The notes beneath the pieces were generated by a model. That model ran no database searches, had not been told where the DNA came from, and was given only the letters and a program-made list of their open reading frames with translations. The translations under genes and the position numbers were made by a program. A stretch of DNA of 36,986 nt from a virus. Of this stretch, positions 30,540-33,538 are shown piece after piece. Within the stretch, counting starts at the first letter, position 1, and every line of letters starts with the position of its first letter. The stretch spans positions 1-36,986 of the IMG/VR virus record IMGVR_UViG_3300024946_000003; one strand, given 5' to 3'.

Positions 30540-32006
30540 CTAATCGGTCATTCGTGCCCATGTGTCCAATATGTTGCCCGTGGCCACCATGTCGTTAATT
30601 GCGTCAACCATCGGGTCAATTTGGTCGTCGTGTTCGTGGCTGTCGGTTGGCGTAAAAGCCTCGCACTCGCCCACAAACTCGCTAACCCAAGCCGCATCAT
30701 CCGGGAGGTAAACGCGGCCGCTTTCAATGTAGCCGGTTATGTCCATAACTCGCGTTAACTTATCTTTAACCCGCTCAATAGCTTCAACCGGGATTGCGCT
30801 AGTAACGCTCAGGTCTTGAATTAAGCCCGTGCCGCTGGCTTTGTCCTCAATGGCCATGACGCGCAAGGCGCCATATTCCACCGGGTCAACGGCTTGGTGT
30901 TTATTCCAAAAGTCCACAACGCGGCGCTTTAACTCCGGCGCCTCCCACTTGCCACGCATTTGATCAATCAAATATGCGTAACCGTCAGCACCTTTGCCCC
31001 AGCATTGCAAAACTGTAAAGTCGTTATGCTCTTTGGTCTTTTGCGCGGTATCTGCAAAAATCTTGCGATAAGTCAAATGCGGCAATACGCGGTAACGCTT
31101 AAACCATGCGCCCTTGATAATGCCACCGCCGAGCGGTGCGGGTCGTTGCTGGTATTGCCCAGCGTAAACGTAACTGTTTTTGCCACGCATGACGGCCAGC
31201 ATGTCGGCCGTGTGTTTTGCAGGCCATAGCGGCTCGCCAATCGCGCGCCCCAGCGGGTCGTCTGTGCTGTCGCACTCAGCCGGCAAAATAACGGTTTCCC
31301 ATTTCTCGCCGTTGCCGCCTTTAATCAACCAACCGGCCAAATCGCTTTCATGCAATCGTTGCATGATCAGAATTATTGGCGTGTTGGTCGGGTCGTTTTT
31401 TCTGCTCTCAAGTGTATTGGTAAACCAATCAAGCACGTTTTGCCGCATTACTTGGCTGGTCGCCTCGTCCGGTTTGTGCGGGTCATCAATGATGATTGCG
31501 CCACCAAAGCCTTTGCGGTGCTTGCCAGCGCCGTAGCCGGTAATCGTGCCGCCTGCACCCGCGGCATACACAATGCCGTTTGCGGTCGTGCGCCATTCGC
31601 CTTTTGCTGAGCTATCACTGCGTAAATTCGTGTCCGGAAATATTGCCTTATATTCCTCATGCTGGATTAGCTCACGGGCAACCCATGCGTTATTAGTCGC
31701 AAGGCCGCCGGCGTAGCTGGTCAAAATAAACTCGCTATCGGGCACCTTGCCCAAGCACCAAGCAATGAAGTTAAGCACCAACTCAGTTTTTGAGTAGCGC
31801 GGCGGTATGTTGATGATCAGGCGCTTGCAATCGCCGGTATAAACGCGCATGAGCGCATTGCAAACAAGCTCATGGTGCGGCGCCTTAATCCAAGCAAAGC
31901 CTTTGCGCTTGAGAAACATCCAGCGGCTAAAGTCGTATAAATCAGCCCTTGCATAACCTCGCGCGGCCAATATCTCGGCATCATTAAAACTTGTTTCTAA
32001 TGCCAT
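30540..32006 (-). CDS. terL: terminase large subunit
   Basis: 488 residues. The ATPase part has the variant Walker A PPRYSKTE (68-75), Walker B GGAIIIDDPHKP (Asp174, Asp175) and the coupling motif LIMQRLHESD (near 215-222). The nuclease part has KIFADTAQKTKEHNDF, AIEDKASGTG and HDDQIDPMVDAI with the metal-binding aspartates. It powers DNA packaging and cuts the concatemer. It overlaps terS by 23 nt with GAGG 9 nt before its ATG. Confidence 0.95.
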   Translation of the reverse strand: MALETSFNDAEILAARGYARADLYDFSRWMFLKRKGFAWIKAPHHELVCNALMRVYTGDCKRLIINIPPRYSKTELVLNFIAWCLGKVPDSEFILTSYAGGLATNNAWVARELIQHEEYKAIFPDTNLRSDSSAKGEWRTTANGIVYAAGAGGTITGYGAGKHRKGFGGAIIIDDPHKPDEATSQVMRQNVLDWFTNTLESRKNDPTNTPIILIMQRLHESDLAGWLIKGGNGEKWETVILPAECDSTDDPLGRAIGEPLWPAKHTADMLAVMRGKNSYVYAGQYQQRPAPLGGGIIKGAWFKRYRVLPHLTYRKIFADTAQKTKEHNDFTVLQCWGKGADGYAYLIDQMRGKWEAPELKRRVVDFWNKHQAVDPVEYGALRVMAIEDKASGTGLIQDLSVTSAIPVEAIERVKDKLTRVMDITGYIESGRVYLPDDAAWVSEFVGECEAFTPTDSHEHDDQIDPMVDAINDMVATGNILDTWARMTD

Positions 32007-32526
32007 TTTTTATGGCCTCGTCCAATTGCTCCGGGGTTACGATTGATTGCTGTATAGGGCCGCCGTTTGCCCCGGTAACTTCCTGCTGTATTTTGTCGCC
32101 GTATTTCTTAGGCAATAGTCTTGAGGCAACCCACTTGCGGCTGTCAATCCTAAGCTTTTGATGTTGCACAAAAGCGCTGTCCATTCTCGCGGCTCCTGCG
32201 TCGTCAACAACAAGCTCCGGCGGTTCGTCTGCAATCTCAACTATTTGGTCGGCGTAGTTTTCAGCCTGCAACTCTTTTGCGCGCGTGTATTGCTCAGTAA
32301 ATTCTTTGTCCTTGCTCAGCCATTCCCAAAACGTTTGGAAAGTTAAGCCAACGGTAATGCATGCCTTGCGCGCGCTCAGCCCGTCCTCAGCTATCAACCG
32401 GCAAAGCTCATTTTTAAGCACGTCGGTTTTAATCGTCGGCCTGCCAACTTTCCGCTTTTCTGTTGCTGGTTGTTTTGTTACTGTTTTTTTAATGCCGTCT
32501 TTTGACGGCTTTTTTACGGTCGTCAT
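31984..32526 (-). CDS. terS: terminase small subunit
   Basis: 180 residues. A basic N-terminus is followed by a helix-turn-helix region (LSARKACITVGLTFQTFWEWL) that should recognise the packaging site. Then comes an oligomerisation helix and a C-terminal part with RKWVASRLLPKKYGDKIQQE, typical of one terS family. It is the first gene of the late block and lies directly behind an intrinsic terminator and the structured region at 32607-32714. Confidence 0.9.
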   Translation of the reverse strand: MTTVKKPSKDGIKKTVTKQPATEKRKVGRPTIKTDVLKNELCRLIAEDGLSARKACITVGLTFQTFWEWLSKDKEFTEQYTRAKELQAENYADQIVEIADEPPELVVDDAGAARMDSAFVQHQKLRIDSRKWVASRLLPKKYGDKIQQEVTGANGGPIQQSIVTPEQLDEAIKNGIRNKF

Positions 32527-32537
32527 AATAAGCCTTT

Positions 32538-32563
32538 AAAAAAATCCCCAGCCGGAGCCGGGG
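32538..32563 (-). terminator. intrinsic terminator directly upstream of terS
   Basis: Minus-strand CCCCGGCTCCGGCTGGGG (stem of about 6-7 bp with a G-T pair) followed by ATTTTTTT. It ends about 12 bp before the terS ATG, so late transcription has to pass it. Its position resembles tR' of lambdoid phages. Confidence 0.85.
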
Positions 32564-32606
32564 TAAGAGGAGTGCATGTCAGGCGCTTACGCATCAACAA
32601 ATGCTA

Positions 32607-32714
32607 GGGAGGGCACCGCGTTGCTTAGGAGCAAAGGGAGGGCCGGCATGGAAACCGAGCGGTGCCCAAAACGGTAAGGGGCTGATAACAGCCATTAACT
32701 CGGTTTCTATCCGG
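32607..32714. other. pseudoknot-capable structured region upstream of terS
   Basis: Nearly 400 bp (32527-32923) carry no credible protein gene, but this part is packed with complementary segments. GGGCACCG (32611-32618) pairs with CGGTGCCC (32660-32667). GAAACCGAG (32651-32659) pairs with CTCGGTTTC (32699-32707), and this stem is extended by CCGG (32643-32646) with CCGG (32711-32714). The two main stems interlock as an H-type pseudoknot with adjacent strands. Two hairpins fill the loops: TTGCT-TAGG-AGCAA (32621-32634) and GGCTG-ATAA-CAGCC (32680-32693). GGGAGGGC occurs twice (32607, 32636). It may be an RNA element in the late leader, a separate small RNA, or part of the packaging site. Confidence 0.7.
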
Positions 32715-32815
32715 TCAGTTATCGCCCGCAAAAACTTTTATACGGCTGGTTACTATGCTCAAGGTGAATTACGCGATTACCCTCAATGTTGCACAATAAC
32801 CATGCGTATAAACAC

Positions 32816-32836
32816 AAAACCCGCAATTAAGCGGGC
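32816..32836 (-). terminator. intrinsic terminator in the late leader
   Basis: Minus-strand CCCGC, loop TTAATT, GCGGG followed by TTTTG. It lies about 25-45 nt downstream of the predicted start of the promoter at 32868-32896. Transcripts would be cut to roughly 45 nt unless the polymerase is modified. Confidence 0.65.
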
Positions 32837-32867
32837 TTTGGTGATAGGTGTTGCTAGAATAGGTTTT

Positions 32868-32896
32868 ATTTAACTCTTTTGTCCTGAGCGTGTCAA
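32868..32896 (-). promoter_or_regulatory. candidate late promoter
   Basis: Minus strand: consensus TTGACA (32896-32891), 17-bp spacer, TTAAAT (32873-32868). Predicted start near 32861. It points through two terminators into terS. It lies immediately after the stop of the putative late regulator gene. Confidence 0.7.
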
Positions 32897-32910
32897 TGCA
32901 TTTATGCATT
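32895..32910. promoter_or_regulatory. 16-bp operator-like element at the late promoter
   Basis: AATGCATTTATGCATT, a full palindrome-like copy of the element found in the immunity region. It overlaps the upstream edge of the -35 by 2 bp and is centred near -41.5 relative to the predicted start. A TTTGCATAAAT half-site lies next to it (about 32922-32932). Confidence 0.65.
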
Positions 32911-32923
32911 AAACATAATAAAT

Positions 32924-33538
32924 TTATGCAAACGCACTGTCTGGCACTATCCCCTCGCGTTGAAATATTGGCGTCAACTTGTCAATGCTCCGGTTTTCCA
33001 GCTCGCGCAAAGATTTTTTAACTTGAGGAAACACCCGGCACAACTCGCTTTTACTGCCGCCGGCTTGCTCCTCAATATCCCGAAACGTTGGGCGCACATG
33101 CTCAAGCTCACCGCATGCCCTTGCAATCAGCCACAAAACCGCGTTGCTTGGTATGCTTGAGTAATTCGGGGCCAAGTTACGCGCAAGTTGTCGCATGGCG
33201 TCCACCCGCTCCGGGGTGAAAACGTAAGACTTTGGTTTGCCTTGTCGTTCAATGGTTTTGGTTTGGCCATACTTGGCTTTGATTGCCCAAGCCTCGCAAG
33301 GTGCTAAATGCGTATTGATTGCTGAGCGTATCATGGCCGCTTGTCCTCTCACCTCCATTGCGCTTAAGCCGCCAAAGTCAATGCTACTAGGCTCACGCTC
33401 GCCGGTGCTCATGCCTAACTCCTCCAAATGCCGGCGCAATATCTTTCCCATTGCGCTCTCTGCTCCTGGTTCGTATGCCTCAATCAAAAAAGAGAAATGC
33501 ACCGCTTGGCTAGTGCTTTGAAATATCGGGTTAGTCAT
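32924..33538 (-). CDS. putative late regulator (antiterminator or activator candidate)
   Basis: 204 residues. The opening TNPIFQSTSQAVHFSFLIEA and SSIDFGGLSAMEVRGQAAMI matches a recurrent, uncharacterised protein at the same location in proteobacterial phages. The C-terminal third (RPTFRDIEEQAGGSKSELCR, then LRELENRSIDKLTPIF) could contain a helix-turn-helix. It is the last gene before the late promoter and terminators, the position of lambda Q. I propose a late-gene regulator from position; there is no direct motif for antitermination. AGGA precedes the start. Confidence 0.6.
   Translation of the reverse strand: MTNPIFQSTSQAVHFSFLIEAYEPGAESAMGKILRRHLEELGMSTGEREPSSIDFGGLSAMEVRGQAAMIRSAINTHLAPCEAWAIKAKYGQTKTIERQGKPKSYVFTPERVDAMRQLARNLAPNYSSIPSNAVLWLIARACGELEHVRPTFRDIEEQAGGSKSELCRVFPQVKKSLRELENRSIDKLTPIFQREGIVPDSAFA

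Follow-up and report, generated by a model that had tools for sequence, protein, structure and literature searches.

A probable late-gene control region upstream of terS in a temperate phage, with an AlpA-class regulator gene and a conserved three-way junction

The window, by which we mean the whole 36,986-nucleotide stretch of DNA analysed here, is an IMG/VR virus record whose late genes lie on the minus strand. These genes run in the order terS (Sf6-like, PF20901), terL, then head, sheath, and tail genes. The 397 nt on the 5ʹ side of terS are gene-free; beyond them lie a 204-aa gene of family phrog_17923 and then RusA and replication genes. In lambdoid phages, such a position is the classical place of the Q antiterminator. 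The gap holds no convincing gene, in agreement with a first-pass annotation that had found about 400 bp without a protein; the sole longer frame (plus strand, 32601–32873, 90 aa) is a mechanical ORF. The features of the region are listed in Table 1.

Table 1. Features of the terS-proximal region, with positions in the window.
Feature	Position	Strand	Basis or state in relatives
AlpA-class (Q-type) antiterminator gene (predicted), phrog_17923, upstream of gap	32924..33538	-	profile and fold
-35 TTGACA of late promoter	32891..32896	-	conserved in L003, L101
AlpA-binding-element-like box AGGACA (candidate), -25 to -20	32880..32885	-	GGGACA in relatives; AlpA GGGACG
-10 TAAATA	32867..32872	-	TAAATT in relatives
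-10-like pause TATTCT (predicted), -1 to +5, A+1, T+5	32856..32861	-	TACTCT in relatives
Intrinsic terminator T1, starts at about +21	32815..32840	-	stem kept in L003/L101 with G.U/G-C exchanges
Long inverted repeat, arms 32791–32812/32737–32758, between T1 and the element	32737..32812	-	pairing, fold
Helix 2, pseudoknot-forming in this phage only	32651..32707	-	pairing and shuffle test
Three-way junction (3WJ) RNA (predicted)	32611..32667	-	fold, conservation
Conserved tail: second CTCCCT plus GCATTTGTTGATG	32591..32610	-	1 difference in 20 nt against L003/L101
Intrinsic terminator T2, starts at about +298	32546..32563	-	pairing kept against L003
terS, Sf6-like (PF20901), first late gene	31984..32526	-	Terminase_2 terS instead in relatives

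The gene upstream of the gap had been put down as a late regulator, and it encodes an AlpA-class protein by both profile and fold; phrog_17923 itself is annotated as of unknown function. With a profile from alignment A2, in which the relatives are 71, 43, and 28% identical to the regulator, the one confident PDB sequence match is P. aeruginosa AlpA (7xya/7xyb, E = 1.6e-7). An AlphaFold2 model of the regulator, built from four sequences only, has a mean pLDDT of 81, and its top PDB matches in Foldseek are 7xyb and 7xya, the AlpA-loaded and AlpA-loading complexes (probability 1.00; TM normalised by target 0.74/0.77). Of the five residues with which AlpA contacts DNA, three have identical counterparts (R128, K138, and S139 as R153, K163, and S164), and the other two, T140 and H142, are replaced by E165 and C167. 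The regulator was found neither in 301 genomes from the order of a Methylovulum genome, a guessed host, nor in 369 from its class. Distant phrog_17923 regulators occur at L160:1699-2520 (Burkholderia phage BgManors32) and L161:4001-4720, with promoter-like hexamers and an intrinsic terminator directly after them; these two regions are without the three-way-junction block and may be further AlpA-type late regions.

Among the viral and genome contigs covered by DNA-pattern scans, the conserved element within the gap, described below, is carried only by L003/L004/L005 (also seen as L087, L089, and L100) and by L101, which form one lineage. The L003/L004/L005 regulator is 71–72% identical to that of the window, and L101 is near-identical to these relatives over the gap. 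A nucleotide search of phages and plasmids gave no real match, and the element is absent from 80 terS relatives. Additionally, covariance model R1 found no further member among 161 sources (the window plus terS, TerL, and regulator loci) and none among 399 genomes of the phylum of G003, a weak result, there being no known positive genome.

Downstream of the regulator gene, positions 32896–32867 of the minus strand form a well-supported promoter. Its register assumes that the -10 hexamer occupies -12 to -7, and the start site is read from that hexamer. The AlpA element, GGGACG, lies at -25 to -20 within the motif GGGACGN5GGTA (PMC7969949), and a -10-like pause lies at -1 to +5, where A+1 and T+5 matter (PMC9371919). 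The candidate box in the window occupies exactly the position of the AlpA element and shares 4 of its 6 bases, or 5 of 6 in the relatives; after a further N5 comes GTTA, against AGTA in L003 and L101 and GGTA in AlpA. Likewise, the predicted pause element appears to fit the AlpA-class pattern in its position and in its A+1 and T+5. L003 and L101 carry TTGACA, GGGACA, AGTA, TAAATT, and TACTCT in the same register, and the composite promoter score is matched at no other of the 73,852 positions on both strands of the window.

Between this promoter and terS stand two intrinsic terminators, T1 and T2, both conserved. Compared with L003, one T2 pair has switched from C-G to U-A and a second from G.U to G-C. 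The long inverted repeat, whose minus-strand fold has z = -5.1, contains two pairs in which both sides have changed. Minus-strand G.U pairs occur in T1, in T2, in the long inverted repeat, and in stem P2 of the junction described below, and point to RNA of that strand, although paired protein sites could also co-change. With two divergent versions only, the search for compensatory changes in relatives that the first-pass annotation had recommended supports T2 and the long inverted repeat, not the main junction stems P1 and P3; these are sequence-identical in the relatives, and covariation is therefore silent on them, neither for nor against. An RNA of the plus strand was rejected, its promoter-like hexamers not being conserved and its fold being weaker in the window; a plus-strand promoter-like site near 32502–32529 is not kept in the relatives. 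As a separate observation on the minus strand, GCATGG in the inverted repeat (32800–32805) complements CCATGC in the P2 loop (32646–32651), a match kept in both lineages that may reflect a loop contact.

The 3WJ sits between T1 and T2, with about 85 nt separating its end from the start of terS. On the minus strand, P1 (32659–32667/32611–32619) has 9 bp, P2 (32654–32658/32643–32647) has 5–6 bp across the two lineages, and P3 (32630–32634/32621–32625) has 5 bp, with CCUCCC unpaired in the P2–P3 linker (32635–32642) and again after P1. This fold is better than those of shuffles in both lineages (z = -3.5 in the window, -4.5 in L003). P2 of the window is one C-G pair shorter than that of the relatives and has two G.U pairs, and its minus-strand pairing survives. 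Positions 32591–32652 are identical to the relatives at 60 of 62, and the block from TTTGGGCACC to GTTGATG is almost unchanged. Measured against coding sequence, the conservation of the gap is modest, its best window (91%, 70 columns) lying within the top 3% of coding windows. A separate promoter for the 3WJ was not found, and Rfam, at the gathering score and at E<=10, offers nothing convincing for the element. A pairing of CCUCCC with the ribosome site of the regulator gene (GGGGAGG) was considered and dropped as generic in L003.

The 3WJ might be nothing but a folded 5ʹ leader on the late mRNA, protecting it or tuning terS translation, with no role in trans; the remainder of the region would then operate as in the main reading given below. 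Its short distance from the terS start agrees with this, as does the location of the terS Shine-Dalgarno sequence AAAGG after T2, with which CCUUU of the linker could pair. However, that pairing is short and generic, and the loops and linker are more conserved than a passive stem needs (60/62); we regard a leader-only role as possible but rather doubtful.

A location directly upstream of terS also invites the reading of the conserved block as a cos or pac packaging site for terminase, its inverted repeats being protein-binding dyads. The GGGAGGGC repeats could be binding sites, and in Bcep176, which shares a DUF6475 gene, the linear record ends between the early genes and terS. The relatives, however, have exchanged terS for a member of a different family, Terminase_2, and have kept the block nearly identical. 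Because a site bound by TerS would be expected to change along with terS, packaging becomes less likely; the retention of the block speaks against TerS binding, not against a cut site. Moreover, the flanking helices show compensatory and G.U changes in keeping with RNA, and minus-strand G.U pairs preserve P2. On balance, a packaging site seems unlikely. Despite the exchange (window 31984–32526 against L101:5263-5859), terL and the neighbouring head genes remain about 78–88% alike, and both terS share an N-terminal MTTVKKPS..DG. A side observation concerns L005:5051-6151, where the first 47 codons of the Terminase_2 terS give way to a GIY-YIG endonuclease domain (PF22945), with a second terS frame after it. 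This looks like the insertion of a homing endonuclease into terS, because the L101 frame is uninterrupted at the same place.

The first-pass annotation had drawn attention to this region through two interlocked complementary pairs, and both exist. Helix 1 (GGGCACCG/CGGTGCCC, 32611–32618 with 32660–32667) is perfect and reaches 9 bp when 32619/32659 is added; helix 2 (GAAACCGAG/CTCGGTTTC, 32651–32659 with 32699–32707) is likewise perfect. Because base 32659 is common to both, their co-formation is limited to 8+9 or 9+8 bp. When each helix must have at least 8 bp and the two together at least 17, an adjacent interlocked pair arises in 2 of 2,000 dinucleotide shuffles of the gap (12 of 2,000 without the adjacency requirement), and no second adjacent pair of such size occurs elsewhere in the 37-kb window. 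Also present are the 5-bp hairpins TTGCT/AGCAA (within 32621–32634) and GGCTG/CAGCC (within 32680–32693), the 4-bp CCGG extension, and the direct repeat AGGGAGGGC (32606–32614 and 32635–32643), which is 9 nt long rather than the 8 claimed.

The H-type pseudoknot proposed from this layout stands in so far as two interlocking helices can form, and helix 2 alone amounts to about -12.5 kcal/mol. However, helix 2 combines the 5ʹ strand of P2 with a strand further upstream whose sequence is different in the relatives, and it is not kept in L003 or L101; its longest equivalent in L003 has 6 Watson-Crick pairs (7 with G.U). Since helix 2 is missing in the only relatives found, the pseudoknot is possible in this phage and is not a conserved property; we think that it is most likely no more than an additional conformation here.

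These helices had also suggested an RNA that, like HK022 put, brings about antitermination in cis, or a genuine pseudoknot controlling late transcription. The rarity of the interlocked layout, the stability of helix 2, and a position before T2 would suit such an element. Against it stand the absence of helix 2 in the relatives and the placement of T1, which lies upstream of the element and beyond its influence. Furthermore, a predicted protein antiterminator with DNA elements is present, and this protein, its candidate DNA site, and the predicted pause account for the region. AlpA and 21Q act via a nozzle on polymerase and are loaded from promoter DNA (PMC9371919), so that no RNA antiterminator would be needed. 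Because an AlpA-type regulator, a DNA site, and a pause are all present, antitermination here probably comes from the protein, and a put-like or pseudoknot regulator is very unlikely. The other suggestion, a C4-like antisense RNA pairing with a phage messenger, fares no better. Like C4 (RF01695), the element would be a compact phage RNA that combines several hairpins with single-stranded segments, and in this phage two leader segments pair in helix 2. However, the RF01695 covariance model matches neither the window nor the relatives at E<=10, and the helix 2 complementarity is not conserved, which leaves control of this kind highly improbable.

Homology, position, and promoter geometry make it very probable that the gap serves the control of late transcription, and the earlier description of a structured, non-coding region on the late strand agrees with homology, promoter geometry, and fold. 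More specifically, the gap is probably where a temperate phage controls its late genes, with an AlpA/Q-type antiterminator and a 3WJ leader or small RNA. Host polymerase would start at the minus-strand promoter that immediately follows the regulator gene, pause on the -10-like hexamer at -1 to +5, and by default stop at the tandem terminators T1 and T2. Once made, the regulator would bind the box between -35 and -10 and load onto the paused polymerase, which would then read past both terminators into terS and the rest of the late genes. We infer a transcript between T1 and T2 that folds as the conserved 3WJ with its CCUCCC stretches exposed, serving as a leader or as a small RNA that, much like StxS or lambda 6S RNA, ends at T2. 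As T1 lies upstream of the 3WJ, the latter would come chiefly from transcripts extending beyond T1, few of which should arise without the antiterminator.

Conservation and fold incline us slightly towards a 3WJ that acts as RNA, whether leader or small RNA; that it is a trans-acting small RNA is plausible at best. By analogy, an StxS/6S-like leader RNA is our best guess at its role. A more tentative idea is that the 3WJ represents a new family of phage RNAs, working together with AlpA-type antitermination as a small RNA or riboregulator whose anti-Shine-Dalgarno-like CCUCCC would act on phage or host messengers.

Among known systems, the alpB and PA0807 promoters of AlpA (PMC7969949, PMC9371919) share with the window a homologous regulator fold with its HTH, a box at -25 to -20, a -10-like pause at -1 to +5, and terminators before the first gene. 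PA0807 has two of these, predicted at +26 and +247 (PMC7969949). Unlike at those promoters, phage late genes follow here, the box is AGGACA or GGGACA rather than GGGACG, two of five DNA-contact residues are changed, and a conserved 3WJ RNA lies between the terminators. The phage 21 Q and lambda Q regions (pR'-tR') likewise have a late promoter adjoining the regulator gene, a pause element, and terminators before the late genes, whereas the regulator here resembles AlpA in sequence, not 21Q or lambdaQ. GafZ of the Caulobacter GTA likewise serves a phage-like late cluster as antiterminator, and its site also falls between -35 and -10, but it acts with GafY and IHF and the site is palindromic (PMC11150451). 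In Stx phages, the pR'-tR' transcript is processed to the stable sRNA StxS (PMC7873438). The 3WJ is likened to StxS by position, as RNA from an untranslated stretch between late promoter and terminator; here, however, T1 lies upstream of the predicted structured RNA.

For phrog_17923, this analysis proposes a likely function as the late antiterminator of a phage group, and AlpA-type control would extend from the Pseudomonas cell-death locus to phage late genes. The DNA site, pause, and terminators are predicted to the base and are therefore testable in one in vitro transcription experiment. The analysis also singles out a conserved folded leader RNA that is without an Rfam match. Finally, just upstream of the -35, the window carries a direct repeat, AATGCATTTATGCA/AATAAATTTATGCA, with a 22-bp spacing (32895–32930, plus-strand letters), which is possibly a further regulator site.
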